A program made the position numbers and the translations under genes. 64,000 bases of DNA. Origin: Prescottella equi. Lineage in GTDB: Bacteria > Actinomycetota > Actinomycetes > Mycobacteriales > Mycobacteriaceae. Where the stretch lies: assembly GCF_020171745.1 (NCBI RefSeq), contig NZ_JAIVAH010000007.1:1-64000 (forward strand), read 5' to 3'. Position 1 is the first letter of the stretch; each line of letters starts with the position of its first letter. Shown piece by piece: positions 26,805 through 40,760 of the stretch. Below the pieces are notes generated by a model that saw only the letters and a list, made by a program, of their open reading frames with translations, searched no databases and was not told the origin of the DNA.

Positions 26805-27584
26805 GTGACCAGCGCCCGATCACCCCGCGTGACCCGCTACTTCGCCCGCCGCGCGACCCTGAAACGGTCGGTCGGACTCCTGAGCGACTTCCGGTACGAG
26901 CAGACCGACCCCGACCTGTTCTACGGCGCGCTCGCCCGCGACTCCGTCGAGCTGATCGGCGACCTGTACCGCGGGCACACCGAGCGGGATCTCACCGGCA
27001 CCACGGTCCTCGACGTCGGCGGCGGCCCCGGCTACTTCGCCGACGCGTTCTCCCGCGCGGGCGCCCGATACGTCCCCGTCGAACCGGACCCGTCGGAGAT
27101 GCACGCGGCCGGACTGAGCGTCGGCGACTCGATCCGCGGATCCGGGCTGGCGCTGCCGATCCGCTCCGACGCCGTGGACGTGTGCTTCTCGTCGAACGTC
27201 GCCGAGCACGTCGCGCAGCCGTGGGTGATGGCCGAGGAGATGCTGCGGGTGACCAAGCCCGGCGGGCTGATGGTGCTGTCGTACACGCTGTGGTGGGGCC
27301 CGTTCGGCGGCCACGAGACCGGGCCGTGGCACTACCTCGGCGGCGAGTACGCGGCCCGCCGCTACAAGCGCAAGCTCGGGAAGGAGCCGAAGAACCGGTT
27401 CGGCGTCTCCCTTTTCGACATCGGCGCGAAGGACGGTCTGCGCTGGGCGAAGGCGCAGACCGGCGGCGACGTCCTCGCCGCGTTCCCCCGCTACCACCCG
27501 CGCTGGGCGTGGTGGATGGTGAAGATCCCGGTGCTGAGGGAACTACTGGTCAGCAACCTCGTCCTGGTAGTCCGCAAGCGCTGA
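26805..27584 (+). CDS. SAM-dependent methyltransferase (Rv0224c-like)
   Basis: A 259-residue class I methyltransferase. The SAM-binding motif is VLDVGGGPGYFADAF at about residues 68-82, with an acidic VEPD following, and SSNVAEHV at the motif IV position. The C-terminal KIPVLRELLVSNLVLVVRK resembles Rv0224c, whose place it takes. The substrate is unknown; the neighbouring glycosyltransferase and membrane genes point to a glycan or lipid. The GTG at 26805 has AAGG 8 bases upstream. Its final 35 bases overlap the end of the convergent amidohydrolase gene, which marks the left border of the inserted catabolic island. Confidence 0.85.
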   Translation: MTSARSPRVTRYFARRATLKRSVGLLSDFRYEQTDPDLFYGALARDSVELIGDLYRGHTERDLTGTTVLDVGGGPGYFADAFSRAGARYVPVEPDPSEMHAAGLSVGDSIRGSGLALPIRSDAVDVCFSSNVAEHVAQPWVMAEEMLRVTKPGGLMVLSYTLWWGPFGGHETGPWHYLGGEYAARRYKRKLGKEPKNRFGVSLFDIGAKDGLRWAKAQTGGDVLAAFPRYHPRWAWWMVKIPVLRELLVSNLVLVVRKR

Positions 27585-28800
27585 GCGCGTCGGCGAGCGC
27601 GACGGCACCGGCCTCGCTGTCGTCTGCCTCGACGTGTTCACTCGGCGAGTGGGAAATCCCCGTGGGGTTGCGGACGAAGAGCATCGCGGTGGGGACGTGG
27701 TCCTTGAGCACACCCGCATCGTGGCCCGCGCCGGTGCCCAGCACCGGGGCATCCGACAGGGTGGCTGCCAGGACGTCCCGGAGTGCGGGGTCGAAGTCGA
27801 CGGTCGGGCTGAACGACTCCTCGACCAGCACCGCGTCGCAGCCTTCCTCCGCGGCGAGCAGAACCGCCGCCTGACGGATCTGCTCCACCAGGACGGTCGT
27901 GACGGTGTCGTCGGGATGGCGCACGTCGACCCACAGGTCCACGCGGGAGGCGATGACATTGGTTCCGCCCGGCGTGGGCACCAGCCGGCCGACCGTCGCC
28001 CGGGCAGCGGACTGCCCACGAGCAAGATCCCGGATCCGTGACACCAGCCGGCCGGCCGCCACCATCGGATCACTGCGATCACACATCAGCGTGGTCCCGG
28101 CATGGTTGCCCTCACCGGCGATCGTCACCCGCCACCGGCCGTGACCGAGGATCGACGACGCCACTGCGATCGGCCGGTCCAGGTCGATCAGACCGCGCCC
28201 CTGCTCCACATGCAGTTCCACGAACACCGACATCCGCGCCAGCGCCTCGGGGTCGGGGCCGAGGTGGGCCGGATCGAGCCCGCCGCGGGCGACGATGTCC
28301 GCGAAGGTGTTTCCGTCGACGTCGGTCAGTGCCCGGGCCCGATCGGGGTCGATCGCGCCGGTCATCAACCGGGATCCGAGGCAGGCCACCCCGAATCGCG
28401 ACCCTTCCTCCTCGGGAAACACCACGATGGCGAGCGGCCGCGACCCCAGCGTGCCGCGGTCGCGGAGCACGTCGAACGCCACCAGTGCCGACGCGACCCC
28501 GAGTGGTCCGTCGAACGCGCCGCCGCCGGGCACCGAGTCCAGGTGGCTGCCGGTCACGACCGCATCGTCGCGGGACCCGTCGGGTGCGTGCCAGGCCCAG
28601 ATCGCGCCGTTGCGATCGACCTCCACCTCCAGGCCACGCTTCTCCGCGTGCGCGATGAACCACTCCCGCAGTTCGTGTTCGGCCGACGAGTGCACCGGTC
28701 GGGAGTAGCCGCCACGCTGCGGGTCCCGTCCGATGTCCTCGATCTCCGCCAGCAGACCGGAGACCGTGTCGCCCTCGACCGCTGCAACCTTGTCGCTCAT
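27550..28800 (-). CDS. M20-family amidohydrolase (N-carbamoyl-L-amino acid hydrolase / allantoate type)
   Basis: A 416-residue zinc amidohydrolase, last gene of the catabolic operon. Metal and catalytic motifs are in order: GSHLDSVPGGGAFDG near residue 85, FPEEEGSRFG near 128, ELHVEQG near 195, the lid-domain NHAGTT near 232, and GAGHDAG and ISHSPSEHV near the C-terminus. This set is typical of the hydantoinase/carbamoylase subgroup (N-carbamoyl amino acid hydrolase, beta-ureidopropionase, allantoate amidohydrolase) rather than simple peptidases. It would cleave a ureido or carbamoyl C-N bond, releasing ammonia and carbon dioxide. Its ATG overlaps the upstream stop as ATGA. The exact substrate is not deducible. 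Confidence 0.85.
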   Translation of the reverse strand: MSDKVAAVEGDTVSGLLAEIEDIGRDPQRGGYSRPVHSSAEHELREWFIAHAEKRGLEVEVDRNGAIWAWHAPDGSRDDAVVTGSHLDSVPGGGAFDGPLGVASALVAFDVLRDRGTLGSRPLAIVVFPEEEGSRFGVACLGSRLMTGAIDPDRARALTDVDGNTFADIVARGGLDPAHLGPDPEALARMSVFVELHVEQGRGLIDLDRPIAVASSILGHGRWRVTIAGEGNHAGTTLMCDRSDPMVAAGRLVSRIRDLARGQSAARATVGRLVPTPGGTNVIASRVDLWVDVRHPDDTVTTVLVEQIRQAAVLLAAEEGCDAVLVEESFSPTVDFDPALRDVLAATLSDAPVLGTGAGHDAGVLKDHVPTAMLFVRNPTGISHSPSEHVEADDSEAGAVALADALSACGLPGRGC

Positions 28801-29966
28801 CGCATCTCACCCGCGCCCACGTACGGGTGCAGGCTGGACAGCGGCCGCCCCTCGGCGAACCGTTCGAGCCGGAAGTCCGTCGCCGGGACGTCCGGGTCCC
28901 GGCTGTCGCCGTCGACGATCAGGTCGGCCATCAGATCGCCTACGGCAGGGCTGATCTTGAATCCGTGACCGCTGAACCCGGCGGCAAGGAACAGTCCGTC
29001 GATCGCGACGGGGGCGATGACGGGATTCCAGTCCGGGGTGATGTCGTAGCAGCCCGCGTAGGTGTGTGCCACCGATGCGTCCGGGAAGTCGAAGCGGTGC
29101 AACATCTTTGTTGCCGCCCTTTCGATCCCCGCATCACTGGCCTGGTTGGAGTACGCGTCCGGGTCGGCGAACTTGGGCGTGCTGTGGTCGCTGTTGCCGA
29201 CCAGCAACTGGCCGGAGCCTTCGATTCGCACGTACTGCAGGCTCACCAGATCCGACAGCGCAGGCAGGTCGTGTAGCGGTTCACCGGCGTCGACCATCAG
29301 CAGTTCCGAGCGCAGCGAGTCGATCGGCAGGTCCAGTCCGACGTCCGCCATCAATTCGCCGGACCACCAACCGGCAGCGACGACGACGGTGTCCGCCTCG
29401 AGGATCTCGCCGCTCGCCAGCTCCACGCCAGTGGCGCGGCCACCGGAGGTCAGCACCCGCGCGACAGGGGTGTTCTGCCGAACCTTCGCGCCTGCCGAAC
29501 GCGCCACCGCCCCGAAGTGCAGGGCCAGCTGTGACGCGTCCGCGTACCCACCGCGAGCCTCGTAGGAGAGGGCCGCGATGTCCTCGAGGTTGAGATGGGG
29601 CCACAGGGCAGCCGCCCGATCGTGGTCGATCATCTCCGCGTCGATGCCCAGCGACCGGTGCACTGCGGTGTTGGCGCGCAACGCATCCTCGTTCTCGGCC
29701 CCGACGGCGACCATGTAACCCACCTGGCGGAAGCCGACGTCGTCGCCCAGACGCTCGAACGTCGGCAGACTCCGCCACGCCATCGCCGCGATCGACGGAA
29801 CGCCGTAGTGGCAACGCACGATCCCACTCGACTTTCCGGTCCCCCCGCCGGCGAGGCTGTTGCGTTCGAGCACCAGCACCTCGCTGACGCCTCGTTCGGT
29901 GAGGGCGCGGGCGATCGAGAGTCCGATCAACCCACCTCCCACCACGATCACACGCCGACCGGTCAT
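28797..29966 (-). CDS. FAD-dependent amine oxidase of the DAO family (sarcosine oxidase-like)
   Basis: A 389-residue flavoprotein. The N-terminal FAD-binding motif is VIVVGGGLIGLSIARAL, followed by Glu in VLERNSLAGGGTGKSSGIVRCHYG, where the region after the motif resembles sarcosine oxidase beta subunits and iminodiacetate or glycine oxidases. The C-terminal GLFLAAGFSGHGFKISPAVGDLMADL is the second flavin-contact motif. It should oxidise a secondary or primary amine to an imine with hydrogen peroxide or an electron acceptor. AAGGAG lies 7 bases before the ATG at 29966; both ends overlap neighbours by 4 bases. In the operon it probably attacks an N-substituted amino acid released by the hydrolases. 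Confidence 0.85.
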   Translation of the reverse strand: MTGRRVIVVGGGLIGLSIARALTERGVSEVLVLERNSLAGGGTGKSSGIVRCHYGVPSIAAMAWRSLPTFERLGDDVGFRQVGYMVAVGAENEDALRANTAVHRSLGIDAEMIDHDRAAALWPHLNLEDIAALSYEARGGYADASQLALHFGAVARSAGAKVRQNTPVARVLTSGGRATGVELASGEILEADTVVVAAGWWSGELMADVGLDLPIDSLRSELLMVDAGEPLHDLPALSDLVSLQYVRIEGSGQLLVGNSDHSTPKFADPDAYSNQASDAGIERAATKMLHRFDFPDASVAHTYAGCYDITPDWNPVIAPVAIDGLFLAAGFSGHGFKISPAVGDLMADLIVDGDSRDPDVPATDFRLERFAEGRPLSSLHPYVGAGEMR

Positions 29967-30529
29967 GACAGGGCTCCTTCGGGTGATGCTGAACCGGCGG
30001 CACTCGCCGGTGCGGATCGGTCGCCGGGGTTCGGCGTCCGGGAAACGAGGTCGCGGACGTCGCCGGCGAGGTACACGAGCGGTTCGCGATCCGTGTCCAC
30101 GTCGAGCCCGAGCACCCGGAGCAGGACGATGGTGTGATCACCTGCGGGCAGCAGGGTCTGGACCTCGCACTCGAGCCACACGCCGGCACCGCGCACGAAC
30201 ACCGCGCCCTCCGGCGTCACCGCCGTGTCGATGCCCGCGAACCGATCCACTCGCCTCGCACCGATGGCGCCGCACACCGCCCCCTGGTCCGCCGCCAGCA
30301 CGCTGACGCCGAGCCGCGGCGCATGCTGCAGGCGCCGCCAGGTCCGCGAGCCGTTCATCACGCACACCGACACGAGCGGCGGATCGAGCGACACCGCGGT
30401 GAACGAGCTCACGGCCATGCCGACCACCTCCCCGTCCAGCTCCGCGCACACGGCCGTCACCCCGGAGGGGAAGTTCGCGAACGCGGCCTTGAGTATCGTG
30501 GGGTCGGTGCCGGTCGTCATCGATTGCAT
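29963..30529 (-). CDS. Flavin reductase (FMN-binding split-barrel)
   Basis: A 188-residue protein of the HpaC-like flavin reductase family. It contains ANFPSGVTAVCAELDGEVVGMAVSSFTAVSLDPPLVSVC, the family's FMN-binding core, and GAGVWLECEVQTLLPAGDHTIVLLRV near the end. These enzymes supply reduced FMN or FAD to a partner oxygenase. The nearest candidate partner is the acyl-CoA-dehydrogenase-fold protein encoded immediately upstream, which has a close relationship to flavin-dependent monooxygenases such as DszC. GGGAG upstream supports the ATG at 30529. There are 69 bases between the stop of the upstream gene and this start, the largest gap in the operon. Confidence 0.85.
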   Translation of the reverse strand: MQSMTTGTDPTILKAAFANFPSGVTAVCAELDGEVVGMAVSSFTAVSLDPPLVSVCVMNGSRTWRRLQHAPRLGVSVLAADQGAVCGAIGARRVDRFAGIDTAVTPEGAVFVRGAGVWLECEVQTLLPAGDHTIVLLRVLGLDVDTDREPLVYLAGDVRDLVSRTPNPGDRSAPASAAGSASPEGALS

Positions 30530-30598
30530 GAGCGTGCTCCCGTGGTCGTCATGGGCCGAATGTGGTGGTGCGGACGAGTGGTCAGGTCCGGGCGGCGA

Positions 30599-31774
30599 TC
30601 AGACCTCGGCGGGCGTCAGGCCGCCGTTGCCGTTGACCGAGAACCCCTCGGCGAGCAGAGTCGCCCCGAGGTTGCGGGTGTAGTTGTCCACCCGGTAGTG
30701 CAGCGAGAATGCGCGGGTGTCGCGGTAGAAGCGCTCGAGCGGGTAGGTCTTGAACATCGAGCGCGAACCGCAGACGTCGAGGCAGCGCCCGGTGACCTCG
30801 AGGGCGACCTGCTTCGCGACCGTGAGGGCATGGACTCCGCGGAACTCGCCCTCCGACCGGCGGCCCGCATCCCACACCGCGGCGGCGTCGAACAGTCCCG
30901 CGCGGGCCGACGAGAGCTTGGCCGCCAGCTCGCCCAGCTGGAACTGGATCAGTTCGCTGGCGGCCAGCTCCGGCCGCGCGCGCACCCAGTCCACCGTGAA
31001 GTCGAAGGCTCCCCGAGCGGCCCCGAGATGGTTGGCCGCGAACGCCAGCGTGAACGTGCGGGTGTCGTCGGTCTCCCACCAACCCGGCTCGCCGAAGATC
31101 GCGTCGTCGGGCAGCACGTAGTCGGTGACCTTCACGGCCCAGCTCACCGTGGAACGCATGCCGAGCACGTCCCAGTTGTCGATCAACTCGACCTCGGGGA
31201 CGTCGCGCGGCACGAGCACGGCGACGGTGCGGTGGTCGTAGTGTTCGGTGCCCGGCAGCGCCAACCAGATGATGTAGTGCGACGCGCCGGGGCCGAGGGA
31301 GGCAAAGTGCTTGGTGCAGTTGAGCACCCACTGGCCCTGTTCGTTGCGGACCAGCTGGCTGCTGGAGGTGCCGACGTTGGTCTTGCCGGGCGTCGCCTCG
31401 CTGCCCACCGAGGCGACCAGCTCGCCGGCCTTGGCGATCGGGACGACGTACTTCTCCATCTGCGCATCGGTGGCCGCGTGCGACAACATGCCGAGAGCGT
31501 GGGAGTGAACCTGGAACAGCTGCGCCGTCGGAGCGTCGACGGCCGCGAGATGCTCGATGAGCGCGTAGTACTCGGCGAAGCCGCCCTCACTCCACAGACC
31601 GGCGCCGCCCCACTTCTCGGGGAGTGTCAGCGCAAGGAGGTCCGCCTCGTACAGTTCGGCGAAGTTCTCGGTCGGAAAGATCGCCTCGTCGTCGTAGCGA
31701 CGGGCGCGGTCGCGGAAGCCCTGGGCGAGGGCGTCGATGGCTGCGAGGCGCTTGGTCTGCTCGGGGGAGTTCAT
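30599..31774 (-). CDS. Acyl-CoA dehydrogenase-fold flavoprotein, probable internal start
   Basis: This is the 391-residue 3' part of the fused frame, listed separately because AAGGAG five bases before ATG 31774 gives it an ideal ribosome site. Length and fold match acyl-CoA dehydrogenases: TLPEKWGGAGL, GSEATPGKTNVGTSSSQLV, LGMRSTVSWAVKV, FAANHLGAARGAFDF and the C-terminal CGSRSMFKTYPLERFYRD. The usual catalytic Glu position of true dehydrogenases is not evident, and the C-terminal RDTRAFSLHYRVDNYTRNLG resembles the DszC/hydroxylase branch, which uses reduced flavin and oxygen. With the flavin reductase next door, a two-component N- or C-monooxygenase is more likely than a beta-oxidation enzyme; this is inference. 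Confidence 0.75.
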   Translation of the reverse strand: MNSPEQTKRLAAIDALAQGFRDRARRYDDEAIFPTENFAELYEADLLALTLPEKWGGAGLWSEGGFAEYYALIEHLAAVDAPTAQLFQVHSHALGMLSHAATDAQMEKYVVPIAKAGELVASVGSEATPGKTNVGTSSSQLVRNEQGQWVLNCTKHFASLGPGASHYIIWLALPGTEHYDHRTVAVLVPRDVPEVELIDNWDVLGMRSTVSWAVKVTDYVLPDDAIFGEPGWWETDDTRTFTLAFAANHLGAARGAFDFTVDWVRARPELAASELIQFQLGELAAKLSSARAGLFDAAAVWDAGRRSEGEFRGVHALTVAKQVALEVTGRCLDVCGSRSMFKTYPLERFYRDTRAFSLHYRVDNYTRNLGATLLAEGFSVNGNGGLTPAEV

Positions 31775-33178
31775 GTTTTCTCCTTGGGTGGTGGAAAGCG
31801 GATAAGTCAACGCGGACAGTGGATCTACGGCAGTGAGGTCGCGGGTCGAAGAAGTCAGGGGCTCGGCGTCGAAGGCGGCCCAGTGTTCGTCGGGGACGGC
31901 GGGGAACTTGGCGCGCACCACATCCTCCCAGTGCGGATCGTCCGCGTTCCCGGCCGCGGTGCACGGCCCGCTGTCGATCGTGCGGCCGTCGGCGAGCGTC
32001 ACCGTGAGCCTGCTGCGGCGGACCGCGGGGAACCCGGCCTCGAAGTCGGGATCGACGACTACCTCGACGAGGCCCGCCATCCGCGCGATCACTGGATCGC
32101 CGAGATCGCTTGTGACGGAATCGAGTCCGAAACCGCCCGAGGTCAGGTAAGCGGCCAGCGGCCAGAGCAGATTGAACTGCGCCTCCTCGCTGGTGGACGG
32201 CACCATCCGCGCCAGGTCGGCCGCGGCCTGGAAGGTGCGCACCCGCACGCCCGTCACCTCGGCAGGATCGAGCCGCTCGCGGCCGAGGGTGCGCAGCACC
32301 TGCTCGGCGCCGGCCAGGGCCGGATGCACCCAGCGACAGCACGGGAAGGGCTTGACGTACGTGTGCATCACCTGCCACTCGGCGCCCAGGTCCGCGGCGC
32401 CGTGGCGCAGCCGGTCGGCGACGAACTCGGAGCGGTGAGCAGTGAAGCCCGCCGCGGCGAGCTGGGCGCTGGTGACACCGACGTGCGCGCCCCAGCCCAT
32501 CGCGTCCTTGGCCATGGTGGGCTCGGCTACCGCCCGCATGATCAGGTCGACCGGCGCGTGGTACTCCGCCAGCCCGATCGCGGCGTCCACCTGCTCGGGG
32601 GACAGCTTCAGCAGCCTGGCGCTCGCGGCGGCGGCGCCGACGGCACCCCAGGTGCCGCTGCTGTGGAAGAGCGGCCAGCGGTCGTGCTGCGCCATCCCGG
32701 CACGGATACCCACCTCGTAGCCGATGAGCATGGCCAGGAGGAACTCCTCGTGGCTTGCGCCCGTCGCCTCGGCCACCGCGAGCGCAGCCGGGATGATCAC
32801 CGCTCCCGGGTGCCCCTTGGCCAAGGGGTGCCCGTCGTCGTAGTCGACGGCGTTCATCACGGTGCCGTTCGCGAGCGCGGCACCGGGTGCCGAGACGCGG
32901 CGCCCGTCGAGCACGCAGGTGGCCTCGTCGCCACTCATCGCGGTGGCGACATAGTCGGTCATGATGCGCGCCGAGCTCAGAAGAGTTCCGGCGCGGGCCG
33001 CGACCGAGGCATCGAGCGTCAGCATGCCCAGGCGGCGTCGCACCTCGGACGGCACCTGCTGCCATGTGAGTCCCACGACGAACTTCAGGACGTCGCCGAC
33101 CTGACTAGTTGCGTTATCCACAACTGGCGTCGTCATATTTGCAACACCCGGAAGACAAGTGGGTGCGTCGAGCGTCAT
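30599..33178 (-). CDS. MmgE/PrpD domain fused in frame to an acyl-CoA dehydrogenase-fold flavoprotein
   Basis: One uninterrupted 859-codon frame. Residues 1-468 form an MmgE/PrpD protein of normal family length: GLTWQQVPSEVRRRLGMLTLD at the start, NGTVMNAVDYDDGHPLAKGHPG with the DDxH-like active-site region, and YVKPFPCCRWVHPAL. Residues 469-859 form a complete acyl-CoA-dehydrogenase-like domain. No stop codon separates them; the linker reads LTAVDPLSALTYPLSTTQGEN. The second part has its own strong AAGGAG and ATG (31774), so both a fusion and a free second protein may be made. The start at 33178 has GGAGG upstream and overlaps the M20 gene stop. MmgE/PrpD members include methylcitrate dehydratase and iminodisuccinate epimerase. 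A lost stop or a sequencing error must be excluded. Confidence 0.8.
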   Translation of the reverse strand: MTLDAPTCLPGVANMTTPVVDNATSQVGDVLKFVVGLTWQQVPSEVRRRLGMLTLDASVAARAGTLLSSARIMTDYVATAMSGDEATCVLDGRRVSAPGAALANGTVMNAVDYDDGHPLAKGHPGAVIIPAALAVAEATGASHEEFLLAMLIGYEVGIRAGMAQHDRWPLFHSSGTWGAVGAAAASARLLKLSPEQVDAAIGLAEYHAPVDLIMRAVAEPTMAKDAMGWGAHVGVTSAQLAAAGFTAHRSEFVADRLRHGAADLGAEWQVMHTYVKPFPCCRWVHPALAGAEQVLRTLGRERLDPAEVTGVRVRTFQAAADLARMVPSTSEEAQFNLLWPLAAYLTSGGFGLDSVTSDLGDPVIARMAGLVEVVVDPDFEAGFPAVRRSRLTVTLADGRTIDSGPCTAAGNADDPHWEDVVRAKFPAVPDEHWAAFDAEPLTSSTRDLTAVDPLSALTYPLSTTQGENMNSPEQTKRLAAIDALAQGFRDRARRYDDEAIFPTENFAELYEADLLALTLPEKWGGAGLWSEGGFAEYYALIEHLAAVDAPTAQLFQVHSHALGMLSHAATDAQMEKYVVPIAKAGELVASVGSEATPGKTNVGTSSSQLVRNEQGQWVLNCTKHFASLGPGASHYIIWLALPGTEHYDHRTVAVLVPRDVPEVELIDNWDVLGMRSTVSWAVKVTDYVLPDDAIFGEPGWWETDDTRTFTLAFAANHLGAARGAFDFTVDWVRARPELAASELIQFQLGELAAKLSSARAGLFDAAAVWDAGRRSEGEFRGVHALTVAKQVALEVTGRCLDVCGSRSMFKTYPLERFYRDTRAFSLHYRVDNYTRNLGATLLAEGFSVNGNGGLTPAEV
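33108..33145. promoter_or_regulatory. Two copies of the putative IclR motif at the 5' end of the PrpD fusion gene
   Basis: GTTGCGTTATCCACAAC (33108-33124) and GTCGTCATATTTGCAAC (33129-33145) each match the 17-bp motif at 38979-38995 at 13 positions (the first on the opposite strand). Their spacing is 21 bases, two helical turns. They lie within the first 25 codons of the fusion gene. They may be operators of an internal promoter or chance similarity. Confidence 0.4.
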
Positions 33179-34380
33179 CGATGGTCCTCCTGGTTCGGCA
33201 GGTGAGCGGAAAGCCGGCCGGCATGGCCGATCAGGGCGGCGAGCAGCGCCGTGCGCGGGACGACCGAGTCGCGCTCCACCGTCTCGGCGCGGCTGCACTG
33301 ATCGAAGGCAGTGGGTCCCAGACCGTCGAGGACGAACGGCGCGAACTGTCCGACGAGGCTGGCGTCCGAGCCGCCCATCTCGTCGATCCGGCGCATCGCC
33401 AGTCCGGCCGGGGCCGCCAGGTCCTCGGCGAGTGTGTAGACAGGATCGGTGACCGCCCGCGGGAGCGCGGGCCTGGTGATGCCGCCGGAGATCTCGACGG
33501 TGACGCCGCCTCCTGCCCGCGCCTCCGCGCGTCGACGGACCTCGGCCACCAGCGCCGCACCCGCCTCGTCGTCCGGGGCCCGCAAGTCGACGTGGATCTC
33601 CGCACGGTCGGGGACCACTTGACGCGCCGTGCCGCCACGCAGAATGCCGACGCTGCACAGCGTGCGGCGTGCACGGTCGGTGAGCGACTCGAGTTCCTCG
33701 ACGAGCGGTGCGAGCGCATGCAGGGCACTCGCACCGGTGTCGTCGGTGCAGTGCGCCGTGCGCCCGCGCGCTGTGATGATCATGGCCCCGACCGCGCCGC
33801 GGGACACGATCACTCCCCCGCCCGCCAGTCCTGCTTCGAGCGCGAGGCACACGTCCGTGCGCCGCCCCAGGTCCGCCAGCCAGTCGCGGCTGCCGACGCT
33901 GCCCAGTTCCTCGTCCGGCACCAGCGCGTAGGTGATCGACTCGACGCCCGGTACCGAGGTCTCGAGCGCGGCCTCGATCGCGTGGACCGCCATGGACAGA
34001 GCGCATTTCATGTCACCGAGACCGGGCCCGGACATGATCGGCTCCTCGGTCACGATCGGCCAGTCTGCGGACGTTCCCTCGGGCCACACCGTGTCTGCGT
34101 GACCGAGCACGAGGAGGCGGAGCCCGGGTTCGCCGGTCTCGAGCGTCGCCTCGAACGCCTGGCCCCGGCACGAGGCGATCGGGTGCCGGCGTGAGGTGAA
34201 TCCCAGCGCTTCGAGCCGCTCGGCAATCAGGTCATTCACTCGGTCGACGCCCGCGGGAAGGAATGATCCGCTCTCGACCTCGGTGAGTCGGGTGGCCAGG
34301 TCGAGAATGCTCGGCAGCCGCGGCTCGAGCATCGCGCTGAGTTCGACGACGGAGGCAGGTGCGGGTGTCAGCTCAGACAT
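33175..34380 (-). CDS. M20 family metallopeptidase (carboxypeptidase G2-like)
   Basis: A 401-residue zinc-dependent hydrolase. Motifs are GHADTVWPEGTSADWP near residue 92 (metal His and Asp), SGPGLGDMKCAL with the bridging Asp, and PDEELGSVGSR with the catalytic Glu pair near 150. The lid domain has GRTAHC in place of the usual GxxxHA. Similarity is greatest to the glutamate carboxypeptidase (CPG2) and acetylornithine deacetylase group, enzymes that cut an amide next to a carboxylate. GGGGAGG upstream fixes the ATG at 34380, which overlaps the DUF1028 gene by 8 bases. It follows the transporter and DUF1028 genes, so it probably acts early on the imported compound. Confidence 0.85.
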   Translation of the reverse strand: MSELTPAPASVVELSAMLEPRLPSILDLATRLTEVESGSFLPAGVDRVNDLIAERLEALGFTSRRHPIASCRGQAFEATLETGEPGLRLLVLGHADTVWPEGTSADWPIVTEEPIMSGPGLGDMKCALSMAVHAIEAALETSVPGVESITYALVPDEELGSVGSRDWLADLGRRTDVCLALEAGLAGGGVIVSRGAVGAMIITARGRTAHCTDDTGASALHALAPLVEELESLTDRARRTLCSVGILRGGTARQVVPDRAEIHVDLRAPDDEAGAALVAEVRRRAEARAGGGVTVEISGGITRPALPRAVTDPVYTLAEDLAAPAGLAMRRIDEMGGSDASLVGQFAPFVLDGLGPTAFDQCSRAETVERDSVVPRTALLAALIGHAGRLSAHLPNQEDHR

Positions 34381-35059
34381 CGACTTCCTCCCCTCCGGGA
34401 GCCACACCGCGTGCGCTTTCGGGATCGATTGCACGGCTGACGTACTCACCGGCGGACGGACCGTACAGATTCCACAGCCGACGGAGCTCGCGCAGCGGTT
34501 CCGGATGCTCGTCGACGCGCAGGTCGACGAGAGGGAACTGCTCGCTGCCGTGCACGCGCAGACAGGCCGACCGGAGCGGGTCCGGCTCGCCGCCGGCTCT
34601 CAGACCTGCCTCCAGCGCGCGGACCAGCCGCTCGCCCAGCTCGAGTCCGGCGCTGCCGTCGAAGGCCACGCTCGCAGCCTTGCCGACGACGTCGCCGACG
34701 AGGATGTTGCCGGCGACGACGTGGTCGGCGGCAGTGACGACGGACACCCCGGACGGGTCGACATACGCACCCGTCCAAGCGATTCCGGGTCCCGTGATAC
34801 CGACGGCCGCGAGCTGACGCCAGTCCGCGTGGACGCTGGAGTGGCGCACTCCGTGGACGGCCTCGGTCGCGGTTGCTCCGCGGGCCATCAGGTCGAGCAT
34901 CCGGGGCCCGAGGCGGGGATCGGTGCGATGCTGGGTGACGACGGCGCCGACCCCGGTGCGCAACCACGGCACCCTGGCTCCCACGGCGACGTCGGAGGTG
35001 GCGGTCGCGACCCCGAGCTGACCGGTGCGCTCGCACCGGGCGACGATGGAATAGGTCAT
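34373..35059 (-). CDS. DUF1028 family protein (Ntn-hydrolase-like)
   Basis: A 228-residue protein of the DUF1028 family, recognised by the start TYSIVARCERTGQLGVATAT, then VPWLRTGVGAVVTQHRTDPRLGPRMLDLM and GNILVGDVVGKA. As I recall, this family is grouped with N-terminal nucleophile hydrolases; the Thr at position 2 would be the nucleophile after Met removal. The C-terminal part carries the peptidoglycan-binding-like extension seen in some members only in short form. DUF1028 genes often lie with M20 peptidases and ABC transporters in degradation operons, as here. The start overlaps the ATPase stop by 4 bases. A role in hydrolysing an amide or imide is inference. Confidence 0.8.
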   Translation of the reverse strand: MTYSIVARCERTGQLGVATATSDVAVGARVPWLRTGVGAVVTQHRTDPRLGPRMLDLMARGATATEAVHGVRHSSVHADWRQLAAVGITGPGIAWTGAYVDPSGVSVVTAADHVVAGNILVGDVVGKAASVAFDGSAGLELGERLVRALEAGLRAGGEPDPLRSACLRVHGSEQFPLVDLRVDEHPEPLRELRRLWNLYGPSAGEYVSRAIDPESARGVAPGGEEVDV

Positions 35060-36165
35060 CGGGTCACCACCCACATGTCGGTACTGCGCCACGAAACTCG
35101 GCACGGCGCACCGACGGTGACGTCGGCGGGCAGTGTGCGACTGGCAAGATCGGCGGTGATCACACGGCCGTCGGCAAGCTCGACCCGCACCGAGGTGCGC
35201 GCGCCGAGGAAGGCGATGTCCCGCGCGATACCCGCTACCGAGAAATCTGCGGCCGCAACACCCTTTTCGGACTGGAGGCCGACCACCTCCGGGCGCAGGA
35301 TCAGCGTGACGTTCTTGTCGGCCGGCACCTCACCGACCCCGTCGACGCGGCCCTCGCCGACGCCGGGCACCACCACGTCGTACCAACCCGGGCCGGTTCC
35401 GGTCACGACGCCGTCCAAACTGTTGGAGGCGCCGACGAATCCGGCGGCGAAGCGGGTCGCCGGCTGGTGGTAGACCTCGGCGGGCGTCGCCACCTGCACC
35501 AGGTCACCGTTCTGCATGAGACCGACCCGGTCCGACATCGCGAACGCCTCCTCCTGGTCGTGGGTGACGTAGACGAAGGTGATGCCCAGTTCGTGCTGCA
35601 CCGACTTGAGCAGTACCTGCATCTGGCGGCGCATCCGCAGATCCAGCGCGCCGAGCGGCTCGTCCAGCAGAAGGACCCGGGGACCGAGAACGAGGGACCT
35701 CGCCAACGCGACGCGCTGCTGCATGCCACCGCTGAGCTGGCGCGGCCGGTGATTCTCCTTTCCACTCAACTCGACCAGGTCGAGGAAACGGGACACCTTC
35801 TCCGCGACGACCTGCTTGCTCTCCTTGCGCTCACGGAGCCCGAAGGCGACGTTCTCGAAGACCGTCAGGTGCGGGAACAGCGCGTAGTTCTGGAAAACGG
35901 TGTGCACCGGCCGCTTGTGCGGCGGCACACCCTGGATCTCCTTGTCGTCCACGAGAATACGACCCGCGTTGGACTGCTCGAGACCGGCGATCATTCGCAG
36001 CGTGGTCGTCTTGCCGCAGCCGCTGGGGCCGAGGAGCGAGAAGAACTCGCCACCCTTGATGTCGAGGTCGATGCCCTTGACGACGTGGTGGTCGCCGAAG
36101 GAACACGCGAGGTTCTCGAGTCTGAGCGAGGCGGGGCTGTAACCCGGTTCGGCGGTGGTTGTCAT
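35056..36165 (-). CDS. ABC transporter ATPase, PotA-like
   Basis: A 369-residue ATPase. Walker A is GPSGCGKTTT near residue 43, the Q-loop is FQNYALFPHLTVFENVAFGL, the signature is LSGGMQQRVALAR, Walker B is LLLDEPLGALD and the switch His is in VYVTHDQEEA. The last 110 residues form a TOBE domain typical of the spermidine/putrescine and iron-type importers (CUT1/POT families). It overlaps both neighbours by 4 bases (ATGA) and energises the two permeases encoded just upstream. The transported compound is probably a small organic amine or amino-acid-like molecule. Confidence 0.9.
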   Translation of the reverse strand: MTTTAEPGYSPASLRLENLACSFGDHHVVKGIDLDIKGGEFFSLLGPSGCGKTTTLRMIAGLEQSNAGRILVDDKEIQGVPPHKRPVHTVFQNYALFPHLTVFENVAFGLRERKESKQVVAEKVSRFLDLVELSGKENHRPRQLSGGMQQRVALARSLVLGPRVLLLDEPLGALDLRMRRQMQVLLKSVQHELGITFVYVTHDQEEAFAMSDRVGLMQNGDLVQVATPAEVYHQPATRFAAGFVGASNSLDGVVTGTGPGWYDVVVPGVGEGRVDGVGEVPADKNVTLILRPEVVGLQSEKGVAAADFSVAGIARDIAFLGARTSVRVELADGRVITADLASRTLPADVTVGAPCRVSWRSTDMWVVTR

Positions 36166-36974
36166 GACAGTTCTTCTTCCGAGGTGACGCGACGCGCCTG
36201 CTTCGAAGGCCAGAGGGAGGCCAACGCGACCAGACACATCAGGACGAGCGAGACGAACATGAAGGCCACGGCGATCGCGTTGATCTCCGGCGACGTGCCG
36301 TGCCGCGACAGGCTGAGGATGAGCACCGGCAGCGTCTCGGTCTCCGGCCCGGCCAGGAAGACGGTGCTGACGACGTCGTCGAAGGAGAACGTGAAGGACA
36401 GCAGCGCCGCGATGACGACCGCAGGCATCATCATCGGCCACAGGACCCGCAGGAATACCCGACGCGGCGGAGCACCCAGGTCTGCGGCGGCCTCGTCGTA
36501 CGTACCCGTCAAGGTCGCGAAGCGGGACTGGAGCACCAATGTCGCGTAGGCGGAACAGAAGACGATGTGCCCGGCCACGACCGACCAGGTACCGGTACTG
36601 AGCCCGAGACGCTGGATGACCACCAGGATGCCCGCGGCGATCACGACCTCGGGGATCATCAACCGGGCATACGTGAGGGTCTGCAACACCGCGCCGGCCC
36701 GCTTGGGCAGGCGGGAGACCGCCATCACCGCAGCCAACGACAACGCGACCGCGACCACGGTGGACAACAACGCGATCAGACAACTGGTGAGGAAGTCCTG
36801 ACGAACCCGTTCGTCGGCGAACGCGCCGGTGATCCACTCGAGCGTCGCGCCGCCCCAGCCGACGAGGCTCTCGTCGGCGTTGAACGCGTTGACGATCACC
36901 ATGCCGATAGGCAGGTAGAGGAAGGCGAGGACGGCAACTGTCACAGCCGCCGCGGGACTGATCCGGCGCTTCAT
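36162..36974 (-). CDS. ABC transporter permease, PotC-like
   Basis: A 270-residue inner-membrane permease with six helices. The EAA loop that contacts the ATPase is TYDEAAADLGAPPRRVFLRVLWPMMMPA near residue 170. The N-terminus, LAFLYLPIGMVIVNAFNADES, and FSFDDVVSTVFLAGPETETLPVLI match the PotC group of polyamine-type transporters. The ATG at 36974 overlaps the stop of the other permease gene (ATGA). Confidence 0.9.
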   Translation of the reverse strand: MKRRISPAAAVTVAVLAFLYLPIGMVIVNAFNADESLVGWGGATLEWITGAFADERVRQDFLTSCLIALLSTVVAVALSLAAVMAVSRLPKRAGAVLQTLTYARLMIPEVVIAAGILVVIQRLGLSTGTWSVVAGHIVFCSAYATLVLQSRFATLTGTYDEAAADLGAPPRRVFLRVLWPMMMPAVVIAALLSFTFSFDDVVSTVFLAGPETETLPVLILSLSRHGTSPEINAIAVAFMFVSLVLMCLVALASLWPSKQARRVTSEEELS

Positions 36975-37912
36975 GTGATGTCCCCCAATCGATCCAAGCG
37001 CTTGCGTGAGGCGAACAGCACGGCGAGCATGACGACCATCAGCGTCGTAGCGATGGCGGCACCGAACGGATAGTTGCCGGTCGCGAGGAACTGCTCGGCC
37101 TCGACGTTGCCGACCATGAGGGTCTTGGAACCGCCGAGGATGGCCGGGATGGTGTATTCCCCGGTCGCCGGGATCCCTACCAGCAGCACGCCCGCGATAC
37201 TGCCGGGCATGGCCAGCTTCACGGTGATCTTCCAGAACGCCCGGCGCCGGCTGAGCCCCATGTCTGCGGCCGCTTCCTGCAGCGCCGGGTCGATCCGGTC
37301 CAGCGCCATGAACATCGGCAGGATCATCAGCGGCAGGTAGCCGGCAACCATCCCGACGCCGATCGCGAAGGTGGAGTAGCCGAGTTGGGTGCCCTCCGGA
37401 ACGACTCCGAAGAACGCAGCCACCTTCGAGACGAAGCCGGTCGGCGACAGCAGTTCGAGCCAGGCGTAGGTGCGCACGACGAAGCTGATCCAGTACGGCA
37501 CGATCACCGCGACCAGGAGCAGGGCCTTGACCCGGCCACTGGCGCGGGCGATGGTGAGCGCGACCGGGAATCCGAGGACCACGCACACCGCGGTCATGAC
37601 GACCGTCATTGCCAGCGACCGCAACACTGCGCCGACGTAGGTGCCGCTGAAGAGCTCTCGGTAGTTCTCGAGAGTGAACCCCGACCGCACCTGGAAGGTG
37701 AGTAGATCGAATTTCATGACGCTGTACACCGCGAGGAGCACGAGCGGGGCGACGAAGAAGACCACGACGTAGGCCGTCATCGGCGCCGCGAGCAGGATCC
37801 CGGACCAGCGCCGGCCGCGTCGGGCCACGCCTCGGTCATTCGATGCGGGCTCCGCCCCCTCGCTCCGGCGTACCGGAGCGTCTGGGCGGGCCACTGGTGG
37901 TGCCTGGGTCAT
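36971..37912 (-). CDS. ABC transporter permease, PotB-like
   Basis: A 313-residue permease with a cytoplasmic basic N-terminus of about 40 residues and six membrane helices. The EAA loop is ALQEAAADMGLSRRRAFWKITVKLAMPG near residue 205, and GEYTIPAILGGSKTLMVGNVE is a hallmark of PotB proteins. It forms the membrane channel with the PotC-like partner. The ATG at 37912 shares one base with the stop of the binding-protein gene (TGATG); an upstream ATG in frame would overlap more. Confidence 0.9.
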   Translation of the reverse strand: MTQAPPVARPDAPVRRSEGAEPASNDRGVARRGRRWSGILLAAPMTAYVVVFFVAPLVLLAVYSVMKFDLLTFQVRSGFTLENYRELFSGTYVGAVLRSLAMTVVMTAVCVVLGFPVALTIARASGRVKALLLVAVIVPYWISFVVRTYAWLELLSPTGFVSKVAAFFGVVPEGTQLGYSTFAIGVGMVAGYLPLMILPMFMALDRIDPALQEAAADMGLSRRRAFWKITVKLAMPGSIAGVLLVGIPATGEYTIPAILGGSKTLMVGNVEAEQFLATGNYPFGAAIATTLMVVMLAVLFASRKRLDRLGDIT

Positions 37913-38964
37913 CAGGAGGCCTTGATCCGGTTCCACATCTTGGCCCGCGCCTCGGTCGCCTCAGCCGACAGGAATCTCTCGGCCACGAACTGCGACCCGG
38001 TGTTCTGCTGGAGCGCAGGGTTTTCCAGGAGTCTGGGCTCGATGAACTGCTCGGCCGACGGCATCAGGTAGGAGGCACCGGTGTTGTTGATGAACCCGCC
38101 GTAGGTCTGCGGTTCGAGGCGGAAGTCGAGGAACTTCAGCGCTTCCTCGGTGTGCTTGCTCCCAGGCAGGAGCGCGACACCCTCGATGTAGCCCGGCGTG
38201 CCCTCCGTCGGCGACACCCATCCCAGCGAGGTGTCGTCCGCGCCCGTGAAGGCGTAGTCGTAGCCGACCGCGATGAGTGCCGAGCCGTCGGTCACCGATT
38301 TCGCCTGGCCCGTGCGCTGGAACGCGAGCAGGTGCGGCTTGATCTCCTTGATCTTCGCCTCGGCCTCGTCGAGTTCGCCGCCGTCGGTGGTGTTGATGTC
38401 GTAGCCGAGTGCCAGCAGTGCGATCGCCTGGACGTCGAGGTCGTAGTCCGGCAGCACGATCTTGCCCGTCCACTGGTCGGCGTTGTCGAAGAGTTCCTTC
38501 CACGACGTCGGCGGATTCGGGACCTTCTCCTTGTCGTAGATGATCCCGACCTTGCCGAGGTCGGTGGGGATCCCCCACGGGAACTCGTCGCGGTACTCCT
38601 GCGGCATGTTCGCCAGGTTCGGGACCGATGCGGGGTCGAAGTCGGCGAGCAGATTGCCCGCCTCCAGTCGGGCCGCCGTGGCGTTGCCCACCGCGACGAG
38701 GTCGTACACGCCCTTGTCCTTGGCCAACTGGGCCGCCAGGGCCGACGAGCCACCGTCCGGCAGAGCGAACTGCTCGATCTCGATCCCGGGGTTGGCGGCC
38801 TCGAAATCCGCGATCTCCGTTTCCCCGACCCAGTCGCCGTAATTGAGGAACTTCAGGGTCACGGTGCCGGAATCGCCGGATCCTCCACCACACGCCGACA
38901 GTGCGGCCCCGAGCACCACACACGCGCCGGCAGCGGAAAGTACTCGCCAGGTCTTGCCACGCAT
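37912..38964 (-). CDS. Extracellular solute-binding lipoprotein, PotD-like
   Basis: A 350-residue lipoprotein, first gene of the catabolic operon. The signal ends in the lipobox LSAC at about residues 22-25. The mature part starts GTVTLKFLNYGDWVGETEI, as in polyamine-binding proteins, and includes YDLVAVGN, PWGIPTDLGKVGIIYDKEKV and GYDYAFTG. It captures the substrate outside the membrane and passes it to the permeases. The acidic and aromatic residues in the expected pocket fit a cationic or zwitterionic amine, but this is only a guess. A copy of the putative IclR motif lies 15 bases upstream of the ATG at 38964. Confidence 0.88.
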   Translation of the reverse strand: MRGKTWRVLSAAGACVVLGAALSACGGGSGDSGTVTLKFLNYGDWVGETEIADFEAANPGIEIEQFALPDGGSSALAAQLAKDKGVYDLVAVGNATAARLEAGNLLADFDPASVPNLANMPQEYRDEFPWGIPTDLGKVGIIYDKEKVPNPPTSWKELFDNADQWTGKIVLPDYDLDVQAIALLALGYDINTTDGGELDEAEAKIKEIKPHLLAFQRTGQAKSVTDGSALIAVGYDYAFTGADDTSLGWVSPTEGTPGYIEGVALLPGSKHTEEALKFLDFRLEPQTYGGFINNTGASYLMPSAEQFIEPRLLENPALQQNTGSQFVAERFLSAEATEARAKMWNRIKAS

Positions 38965-39117
38965 GACCCCTCATCTCTGTTGTCATTATCGCAACCACAG
39001 TTGCCGTATGGACACTTGAAGTATTCGGCGGCGGTATGCCCGACCGGTGTCGTCACCGTTACAAGTTCGTTTCCTATGTTGCGAATAAGCCAATTCATGT
39101 TGTGCTCACTGCAATTC
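38965..39117. promoter_or_regulatory. Divergent promoter region with two candidate IclR sites
   Basis: This 153-base region between the binding-protein gene and the iclR gene is A/T-richer than its surroundings. It contains GTTGTCATTATCGCAAC at 38979-38995 and a relative, GTTGCGAATAAGCCAAT, at 39078-39094 on the other strand (12 of 17 matching). One site lies near each start codon, which would suit repression of the operon and autoregulation. Confidence 0.55.
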
Positions 39118-39927
39118 ATGACCGAAGCTCGTGGCATGCCACCCACACGCGACACCAGCATTCGCCGGGGTCTGGAAGTCCTGATGACCCTCCAGACCCG
39201 CCGCGCCCGCGAGAGCGGCGGACTCGGCGTCACCCAACTCGCCGAGATCCTCGACATGGACAAGAGTCAGATCTCCCGCAGCCTCAAGGTCCTCACCGAG
39301 TACGGCATGGTCGACCGGGACCCCAAGACACGCGCCTTCCGCCTCGGATGGCGAATCTTCAACATGGCGCAGGTCAGCGGCGACCAGCGCCTGCTGGAGT
39401 GCGCGGGCGGGGTCCTCGATGGGTTGCTCAACCGGTTGAACGAATCGGTGTACCTCTCGGTGCGTTCCGGCTACGACGCGCTGACCGTGGCCGAGCGGAC
39501 CGCCAACCACTCGATCCAGGCGATGCCGGCGCACTGGTCGCTGTACTCGACATCGGTGGGTCGCGTTCTCCTCACCGACAAGACATCCGCCGAGATCCGC
39601 GAGATGTACGCCGGCCAGAAGCTCAGCAGTGCGCGTGTGGGCGGCGTCGGGTCCGTCGACGACCTGGTGGAGTCCGTCGCCCGAACCCGGGAGGACGGGC
39701 ACTCCATCGTCGTGGACGAGTTCGAGGTGGGACTGGCTGCCGTCGGTGTGCCGGTGCGTGACTATCGCGGCGTCCTCATCGCCGCCCTCGGGGTCTCGGG
39801 CCCCACCTTCCGCCTGGAACCCAAGATCGATCAGTCGGTGTCCGACCTGAAGGAAGCCGCGCACGAACTCGAGGACCTCCTCGCCCTCCGCAACGGTGAG
39901 CGCTTCCCCCTCGGGCGGGACGCATGA
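39118..39927 (+). CDS. IclR family regulator of the catabolic island
   Basis: A 269-residue transcription factor. The winged helix-turn-helix is at about residues 15-80 (LGVTQLAEILDMDKSQISRSLKVLTEYGMVDRD). The effector-binding domain follows, with VAERTANHSIQAMPAHWSLYSTSVGRVLL, typical of IclR. It is transcribed away from the ten-gene operon and overlaps the amidase gene by 4 bases. IclR proteins generally respond to the pathway substrate or an intermediate, so this is the likely specific regulator. The ATG at 39118 is the best start; ATG 39136 is an alternative. Neither has a strong ribosome site. Confidence 0.88.
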   Translation: MTEARGMPPTRDTSIRRGLEVLMTLQTRRARESGGLGVTQLAEILDMDKSQISRSLKVLTEYGMVDRDPKTRAFRLGWRIFNMAQVSGDQRLLECAGGVLDGLLNRLNESVYLSVRSGYDALTVAERTANHSIQAMPAHWSLYSTSVGRVLLTDKTSAEIREMYAGQKLSSARVGGVGSVDDLVESVARTREDGHSIVVDEFEVGLAAVGVPVRDYRGVLIAALGVSGPTFRLEPKIDQSVSDLKEAAHELEDLLALRNGERFPLGRDA

Positions 39928-40760
39928 CCGAGCAGGCGCACGTGGTCGTGGCCCAACTGGATCCCCGACTTCTCGACTTCGACGCCAACGCCGAAATGAC
40001 TTCGACCGCAATCACATCTGCGCGGTCCAGCGGAGCCGACATCATCGTCCTGCCCGAGTTGTGCCTGAGCGGCTACATGTTCGAGACAGTCGACGAAGCC
40101 CGTTCCTGCGCAGTCACACCCACGCATCCGATCTTCTCGGAGTGGGCGCATGCGCTCGGCGGTTCGTCCGGTCTCGTCGTGGGCGGCTTCGCGGAACGCT
40201 CGGGTCCCGACCTGTACATCAGCGCAGCCATGGTCGGCGCCCAGGGAATCCGAGCCGTCTACCGCAAGACCCATCTCTGGAACAGGGAGAAGCGCTTCTT
40301 CACCCCGGGCAGCGACGCGCCTCCGGTGGTCGACACCGCATTCGGGAGGGTGGGCGCGCTGATCTGCTACGACCTGGAATTCCCGGAGATGGCGCGCAGT
40401 CTGGCGATGCGGGGCGCCGACCTGATCGCCGTACCGACTAACTGGGCTCTCGATCCTCGCCCGTACGGGGACGAACCCCCACAGGTCATGCTGGCGCGCG
40501 CCGCCGCACGGGCCAACCACGTCCATGTCGCGTGCGCGGACCGCTCAGGAGTGGAACGGGACCAGGAGTTCACGGGCGGCTCGGCAATCATCGACACGGC
40601 CGGGTGGGTGCTCGACTTGCCCGACGCCGACGGGGTCGTGCACGCCACCCTGACCCTGTCGTCGGCGCGCGATCGGCAGATCTCCGACGTCAACCACGTC
40701 TTCGGGGACCGCCGTCCCGAGCTGTACACCGGCATGTTCGAGGTCGCGGGCACGGTGTGA
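39924..40760 (+). CDS. Carbon-nitrogen hydrolase (nitrilase superfamily amidase)
   Basis: A 278-residue enzyme with the full nitrilase-superfamily triad: Glu in LPELCLSGYMF near residue 46, Lys in YRKTHLWNREKRFF near 116, and the nucleophile Cys in GALICYDLEFPEMAR near 151. Members are aliphatic amidases, omega-amidases or N-carbamoyl-D-amino acid hydrolases; nitrile hydrolysis is less likely given the sequence around the Cys. It overlaps the iclR stop by 4 bases. It is the fourth C-N bond hydrolase in the island, pointing to a substrate with amide or ureido nitrogen. Confidence 0.85.
   Translation: MTEQAHVVVAQLDPRLLDFDANAEMTSTAITSARSSGADIIVLPELCLSGYMFETVDEARSCAVTPTHPIFSEWAHALGGSSGLVVGGFAERSGPDLYISAAMVGAQGIRAVYRKTHLWNREKRFFTPGSDAPPVVDTAFGRVGALICYDLEFPEMARSLAMRGADLIAVPTNWALDPRPYGDEPPQVMLARAAARANHVHVACADRSGVERDQEFTGGSAIIDTAGWVLDLPDADGVVHATLTLSSARDRQISDVNHVFGDRRPELYTGMFEVAGTV

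Follow-up and report, generated by a model that had tools for sequence, protein, structure and literature searches.

The stretch of DNA considered here, 64,000 nucleotides of a Prescottella equi contig (NZ_JAIVAH010000007.1, positions 1 to 64,000, referred to below as the window), contains a 13-kb block of genes, here called the island, that appears devoted to the breakdown of a nitrogenous organic acid. Ten genes run along the minus strand from potD (38964) down to carb (27550), and a divergent pair, namely iclR and a CN-hydrolase gene, lies on the plus strand. All the protein families encoded in the island are already known, and no characterised pathway with this set of genes was found; the literature consulted, here and below, was open-licence only, so that an absence from it is weak evidence. 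The features are as follows.

27550..28800, minus strand: carb, M20-type amidohydrolase, proposed N-formyl-amino-acid (N-formylglutamate-like) amidohydrolase (NF006770, 594.6 bits)
28797..29966, minus strand: DAO-type flavoprotein oxidase, SoxB-like, proposed N-methyl-amino-acid (N-methylglutamate-like) oxidase (PF01266, 1.1e-61)
29963..30529, minus strand: flavin reductase of the HsaB/HpaC type, proposed partner of the acyl-CoA dehydrogenase (ACDH)-like monooxygenase (PF01613, 4.4e-37)
30599..31774, minus strand: ACDH-fold protein resembling SfnB/DszC and sharing a frame with PrpD, proposed two-component flavin monooxygenase
31775..33178, minus strand: MmgE/PrpD-family protein of the isomerase, dehydratase or epimerase type (PF03972, 3.9e-44; PF19305, 8.7e-20)
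33175..34380, minus strand: M20 metallohydrolase, carboxypeptidase G2-like (PF01546; scanned as 33175-34449)
34373..35059, minus strand: DUF1028 protein (PF06267, 1.6e-59; scanned as 34373-35104)
35056..36165, minus strand: PotA-like ABC ATPase (family scan)
36162..36974, minus strand: PotC-like permease (family scan on 36162-36971, without the start codon; start ATG read from the sequence)
36971..37912, minus strand: PotB-like permease (family scan)
37912..38964, minus strand: PotD-like solute-binding protein (family scan)
38991..39004, no strand: candidate IclR operator (GCAAC-N4-GTTGC), upstream of potD and 26 bases from its start codon
39118..39927, plus strand: IclR-family regulator (PF01614, 9.8e-23; PF09339, 8.8e-9)
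39924..40760, plus strand: nitrilase-superfamily CN-hydrolase, amidase type (PF00795, 4.5e-39)

Eight of the nine junctions between the ten minus-strand genes overlap by 1-8 bases. Going from potD to carb the overlaps measure 1, 4, 4, 4, 8 and 4 bases, followed by the sole gap (69 bases, between the ACDH part and the flavin reductase gene) and by two further overlaps of 4 bases each; the start codons of PotB, PotC, M20 and DUF1028 were picked from the sequence, and the overlaps depend on them. The iclR and CN-hydrolase genes, divergent from the operon, overlap each other by 4 bases. The palindrome upstream of potD is a candidate site for IclR: its arms are preserved in all three species that carry the island, with a variable spacer, and the pattern, which was picked after being seen, occurs once in the 64 kb against 0.05 expected. 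A scan for promoters and terminators stayed near chance (0 vs 0.6 and 5 vs 3.6).

The complete set, in the same order, is present in Rhodococcus sp. OK519 (L007) and in Prescottella equi DSM 20307 (L008), with protein identities to the island genes of 73.6-97.8%. Only two of 13 congeners, the genomes G307 (OK519) and G308, have a DAO about 90% identical to that of the island, and the same two supply the two relatives of the ACDH part found in a scan of genome contigs that covered close relatives only. In the 11 congeners without the island, the methyltransferase, ROK and aldehyde dehydrogenase genes stand together at the site in every case, with about 20-930 bases between the first two; in a stretch from another genus (L142), the methyltransferase gene alone was found. 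The block is therefore a discrete insertion at one site, or has been lost elsewhere. No integrase or transposase family was assigned among the scanned island genes, and a repeat scan gave no recognisable mobile-element ends. Outside these carriers, searches for the distinctive proteins returned little: relatives of the ACDH part at E<=1e-50 occur in one of 394 class genomes, its own, those of PrpD at E<=1e-60 in three of 298 order genomes, its own included, those of DUF1028 at E<=1e-55 in one of 374 class genomes, and those of PotD at E<=1e-50 in two of 374. The distinctive genes are thus nearly confined to one genus, and the island is known from three species so far. The initial annotation had described ten overlapping genes and a divergent iclR-amidase pair, an IclR-linked catabolic operon that interrupts a conserved block, and a gene set matching no characterised pathway; the open reading frames and families agree with this description, the flanking genes bear out the interruption, and the view of a discretely inserted operon for a nitrogenous organic acid is supported.

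In three other congeners (L131, L132 and L133), the site of the island, between the methyltransferase and ROK genes, is occupied by unrelated sequence of about 0.9 kb; this intergenic site may be an integration hot spot.

The enzyme at the end of the operon, carb, has an automatic label that is open to revision. It scores 594.6 bits against the allantoate amidohydrolase equivalog NF006770, above the cut-off of 372, and this cut-off is exceeded in 69 of 148 class genomes and in none of 14 control genomes. The surroundings of the family were examined in 20 loci (L072-L091) out of 72 places, three of them shortened by contig ends, with allantoin genes not searched for by model. HutF and/or HutU lie in the stretch in 17 of the 20, two have a gmaS-mgsABC-like set and one has neither; the hut-free loci are L081, L087 and L076, whose enzymes are 69%, 63% and 51% identical to the island protein, and against the enzymes that accompany hutF and/or hutU, carb shows an identity of about 50%. 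Since HutF produces N-formylglutamate, the family member beside hutF would most simply be an N-formylglutamate amidohydrolase, and the label of NF006770 looks wrong for most of the actinobacterial members examined. Allantoate itself was dropped as a substrate of carb once the hut and gmaS-mgsABC contexts appeared. Histidine degradation of the HutF type was likewise set aside as the role of the island in its own genome, where no HutF match was found, though HutU is present; no further match to NF006770 at E<=1e-100 was found there either.

The second context leads toward N-methylated amino acids. According to PMC6237917, the best relatives of GmaS, MgsA, MgsB and MgsC are type III glutamate-ammonia ligase, GlxB-type amidotransferase, GlxC and FMN-binding glutamate synthase, and the N-methylglutamate pathway that they serve is also outlined in PMC5023235. 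All four families have members in L103 and L104, the longer stretches of L081 and L087 (the amidotransferase there being a glutamine amidotransferase), together with a distant DAO-family gene (26-28%) adjoining carb. Six relatives of carb outside the island reach 63-75% identity: L103 and L104, found from the side of carb, and L024, L119 and L120, found from the side of DAO, all accompany gmaS-mgsABC-like genes, and L102 accompanies hut genes. In the carb tree, the island enzyme groups with L119 (98/96) within a clade of nine rows (100/100) made up mostly of copies from the gmaS-mgsABC context.

The oxidase encoded next to carb is nearest to the beta subunits of sarcosine oxidase. It scores 140 bits against the soxB model TIGR01373, below the cut-off of 529, and its alignment has no His in the stretch in which SoxB carries the His of its covalent FMN. 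Relatives at E<=1e-100 occur in 23 of 296 class genomes, at 24 places. The context sample for DAO comprised 23 loci, i.e., 16 of these places (L115-L130), six loci from a search for relatives (L023-L028, of which L023 is also among the 24 places) and one plasmid locus (L031). A gmaS-mgsABC-like set stands beside DAO in 18 of the 23, the exceptions being L025 and L115-L118, and carb is by or near DAO in nine. Within L115-L130 the two are adjacent in all seven places where the DAO is at least 68% identical to that of the island, and in none of the nine where it is below 60%. The order gmaS-mgsABC-DAO-carb occurs in L119 and L120, whose DAO and carb are 68-70% and 68-75% identical to the island proteins. 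Of the 20 loci carrying the gmaS-mgsABC-like set, L103 and L104 included, 11 have an Amt-like gene; the Amt transporter family can take up methylammonium. In the DAO tree, the island protein falls with L115-L121 in a clade of ten rows (100/99). The carb partners of DAO in L115-L118 and L121 belong to another lineage, among the hut copies, so that more than one origin of the pairing seems likely.

Because carb belongs to a family found beside hut genes, and recurs with DAO beside gmaS-mgsABC-like genes, it probably takes part in N-formyl or N-methyl chemistry of the glutamate type, and from this genomic context we propose that it is an N-formyl-amino-acid (N-formylglutamate-like) amidohydrolase. 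It is accordingly probably neither a ureidase nor an allantoate amidohydrolase, and in this the initial annotation, whose route ended in ureide or amide hydrolysis, is revised; ureide hydrolysis is kept as a rival and discussed below.

The genes between the importer and the DAO-carb pair would prepare the substrate. The only solved relatives of the M20 enzyme at E<=1e-15 are three sequences of carboxypeptidase G2, an enzyme that releases glutamate from amides, and its score against the model for carboxypeptidase G2/glutamate carboxypeptidase, NF004788, is 170 bits, below the cut-off of 349. DUF1028 has one relative from structural genomics, 2imh, and no paper on it was found, with the same weakness of absence. 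Of five plasmid loci, taken from 313 records, four have an argE-type M20 gene and RidA adjoining DUF1028 or close to it, and a Pot-type importer is nearby in three.

PrpD and the ACDH part share one stop-free frame, open in the window, L007 and L008, and the difference in length of the linker between the two parts in L007 is in frame. A Shine-Dalgarno-like AAGGAGA stands directly before the ATG of the ACDH part in all three species, so that separate translation of this part is also possible, and the product may be one fused protein of 859 residues, two proteins, or both. Of the fusion described earlier, the shared frame is therefore conserved, and the single polypeptide may be two in vivo. In the alignment with SCAD, the segment ITEIYE, whose last residue we take to be the catalytic Glu, faces AFSLHY, i.e., Glu faces Tyr, and the catalytic Glu of acyl-CoA dehydrogenases is absent near the C-terminus of the island protein. 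As this residue is missing and a flavin reductase gene follows 69 bases downstream in the same operon, the ACDH-like part and the reductase are probably a two-component monooxygenase. Flavin reductase genes also adjoin relatives of the ACDH part (30-32% identity) on an Arthrobacter plasmid (L032) and, as annotated, on an Aminobacter plasmid. The island protein shares its fold, its lack of the Glu and its partnering reductase with the two-component monooxygenases DszC, SfnB, KijD3 and the nitrososynthases; it differs from them in lying in the frame of PrpD, and the best plasmid relative is just 32% identical.

A plasmid of Aminobacter niigataensis DMFA1 (p1, L033) has two ACDH-fold relatives (29-30%), each annotated beside a gene for an Xaa-Pro peptidase, with flavin reductase and ectoine-type importer genes between or beside them.

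Taken together, these data suggest a route through the island, to which we would give somewhat less than an even chance: an importer-fed operon in which amide cleavage and the PrpD and monooxygenase steps would yield an N-methylated amino acid, to be demethylated by DAO and carb. It starts from the gene set, its conservation and discrete insertion, the recurrence of the DAO-carb pair, and the two genomic contexts (hut; gmaS-mgsABC-like), whereas each reaction, the order of the steps and the substrate are what we infer. The PotABCD-type importer would take up an amide-bonded nitrogenous organic acid, whose amide bonds would be cleaved by the carboxypeptidase G2-like M20 enzyme, DUF1028 and the CN-hydrolase. 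PrpD may then isomerise, epimerise or dehydrate an intermediate, which would next be oxygenated by the ACDH-like monooxygenase and the flavin reductase to give an amino acid that is N-methylated and probably glutamate-like. DAO, which resembles SoxB, would oxidise the N-methyl group, and carb would hydrolyse the N-formyl (or related N-acyl) amino acid so formed, freeing the amino acid and formate, the N-methyl carbon perhaps being lost as formate through the N-formyl intermediate. A precedent for a route that passes through N-methylglutamate is offered by homarine. Of the steps put forward in the initial annotation, import, amide cleavage, flavin-dependent oxygenation and amine oxidation are supported as plausible.

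Several points weigh against this route. The usual product of a SoxB-like oxidase is an imine, which then yields formaldehyde, and DAO would have to carry the oxidation on to an N-formyl product; DAO and carb could also act in the reverse order. A simple N-methylglutamate route would leave PrpD, the ACDH part, DUF1028 and M20 without a task, and no gmaS or mgsABC family was assigned to the island genes. Elsewhere, the assignment of gmaS-mgsABC consists of family labels that fit ordinary glutamine and glutamate synthases too. The pairing itself is not a fixed one: 14 of the 23 DAO loci have no carb in the fetched stretch, so that DAO need not work with carb, a second DAO of the same genome (L023, contig C12) has a gmaS-mgsABC-like set and no carb nearby, and in L115-L118 the pair stands with neither hut nor gmaS genes. 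One island carrier, G307, has a HutF above cut-off on another contig, so that in this genome carb could take part in histidine degradation; in the own genome, a HutG-family model is matched in part, with 35.5 bits against a cut-off of 28.9; and the clade of the island carb includes one copy from a hut context (L102, 66%), in a tree of which several deep forks are weak and the bootstrap is not quite settled. Finally, PMC6237917 states that Gram-positive bacteria oxidise methylamine by methylamine oxidase.

The strongest of the competing explanations, which we consider unlikely, is a ureide or creatinine-type pathway, in which carb would hydrolyse an N-carbamoyl amino acid, e.g., N-carbamoylsarcosine, and DAO would oxidise the freed sarcosine to glycine and formaldehyde. 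L-carbamoylase and allantoate amidohydrolase are the nearest solved relatives of carb, which belongs to the same M20 family, the affinity of DAO to the sarcosine oxidase beta subunits fits as well, and the pairs of L115-L118 do without gmaS or hut genes. However, no creatininase, creatinase or hydantoinase family was assigned among the scanned island genes, and the hut context of the carb family favours formyl substrates; the members of NF006770 that were examined have surroundings that are hut or gmaS-mgsABC-like in all cases except one, no search by model having been aimed at allantoin genes.

Catabolism of an aminopolycarboxylate or opine-like chelator, with PrpD acting as an iminodisuccinate epimerase and the monooxygenase and DAO splitting C-N bonds, is a good deal less probable. 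It draws on the solved relatives of PrpD, among which IDS-epimerase (80 bits, 2e-21) is slightly surpassed by IRG1 of B. subtilis (87 bits), and on the presence of a flavin reductase with an oxygenase-like partner, plus DAO. However, the monooxygenase proposed here is of the ACDH type, whereas those acting on nitrilotriacetate (NTA) and ethylenediaminetetraacetate (EDTA) are of the luciferase type, no C-N lyase family was assigned among the scanned island genes, and M20, DUF1028 and carb would have no clear role. Another assignment tried for PrpD, 2-methylcitrate chemistry, was rejected, as the model NF042438 gave only 29.4 bits against a cut-off of 950.

We attach slightly less weight still to the catabolism of a polyamine or N-acylpolyamine entering through the PotABCD importer. 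PotA, PotB and PotC have their best scores against polyamine systems, PotA lying just under the cut-off of TIGR01187 (355.3 vs 355.6 bits), but PotD reaches just 58.5 bits against the PotD model, far under the cut-off of 582, and PotD-type proteins bind many different solutes. The one other relative of PotD in the class at E<=1e-50 (G569, 35%, L146) occurs with relatives of PotA, PotB and PotC, near a gene that by eye resembles an FAD-oxidoreductase and a relative of aldehyde dehydrogenase, which would suit polyamines, whereas the assignments in the island include no aldehyde dehydrogenase, no aminotransferase and no gamma-glutamylpolyamine gene. That the ACDH part works on a CoA ester as a genuine acyl-CoA dehydrogenase, with an incidental flavin reductase, is very improbable despite the presence of such enzymes among its nearest solved relatives, given the Tyr in place of the Glu, the reductase genes in the operon and beside its Arthrobacter and (as annotated) Aminobacter relatives, and the fact that neither a CoA ligase nor a CoA transferase is among the assignments for the island.

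The proposed route by way of an N-methylated amino acid can be compared with established systems. With the N-methylglutamate pathway of methylotrophs (gmaS-mgsABC-mgdABCD), the island has in common an oxidase resembling the SoxB-like family, as well as relatives of DAO and carb that adjoin gmaS-mgsABC-like genes in other actinobacteria; in contrast, it lacks gmaS, mgsABC and the four-subunit dehydrogenase, and has genes for an importer, an amidase, PrpD and a monooxygenase. With the hut system of HutF and an N-formylglutamate hydrolase it shares, through carb, the family of the hut-side enzyme, but there are no hut genes in the island. Methylamine and N-methyl amino acids are common sources of nitrogen and carbon. 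In the known N-methylglutamate route the last step falls to a dehydrogenase with four genes, mgdABCD; its product is reported as formaldehyde in PMC6237917 and predicted to be methylene-tetrahydrofolate in PMC5023235. That actinobacteria use their gmaS-mgsABC-like genes for the synthesis of N-methylglutamate is something that we infer from family labels and gene neighbourhood. A wider proposal, which we regard as possible yet doubtful, is that DAO and carb would form a recurrent actinobacterial module of N-demethylation, converting an N-methyl amino acid to the N-formyl compound and then to formate and the free amino acid, and would in this way take the place of mgdABCD with no need of folate; in the R. 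equi group, a new importer-amidase-PrpD-monooxygenase block would feed the module from an N-methylated natural compound. Searches of the literature for N-methylglutamate together with N-formylglutamate, or for an N-methylglutamate oxidase, found nothing, an absence that is weak for the reason already given.

If DAO and carb do perform the work of mgdABCD and end in formate, many actinobacteria would possess an unrecognised route for N-methyl compounds, the label of allantoate amidohydrolase would be wrong for the hut-linked members at least (17 of the 20 loci), and the search for the substrate of an island found in three species would be narrowed. The most interesting part may then lie outside the island, in the possible two-enzyme replacement of N-methylglutamate dehydrogenase in actinobacteria. 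As for the substrate, the habitats of R. equi, as described in PMC2947987, are the herbivore intestine, manure and soil, in which N-methylated plant and animal compounds are plausible; the terms "methylamine" and "amidohydrolase" have no occurrence in the text of that genome paper (PMC2947987).

Some observations on related clusters complete the picture. In actinobacterial gmaS-mgsABC-like clusters (L119-L130, L023, L024, L026-L028 and L031), a single SoxB-like DAO is found where methylotrophs have mgdABCD. The RidA-DUF1028-ArgE clusters (L092, L093, L095 and L096) come from plasmids of four genera of proteobacteria, and three of the four have a Pot-type importer in the vicinity. They resemble the island in combining DUF1028, an M20 enzyme and a Pot-type importer, with an IclR regulator in one case, but the island has no RidA, and no relative of PrpD, the ACDH part or carb was found in the cluster stretches. 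Relatives of PrpD at 35-41% identity, found at eight loci, belong to other clusters, with a CN-hydrolase relative in five of the eight, and give no clue to the substrate. In L029, L030, L035, L036 and L040, the PrpD relatives (38-41%) occur with both a CN-hydrolase relative and an ABC importer of the glycine-betaine type, a type given by the annotation for L035, L036 and L040 and assigned by eye for L029 and L030; genes for a Rieske-type oxygenase and a DAO-family protein are present in addition in L035 and L040.

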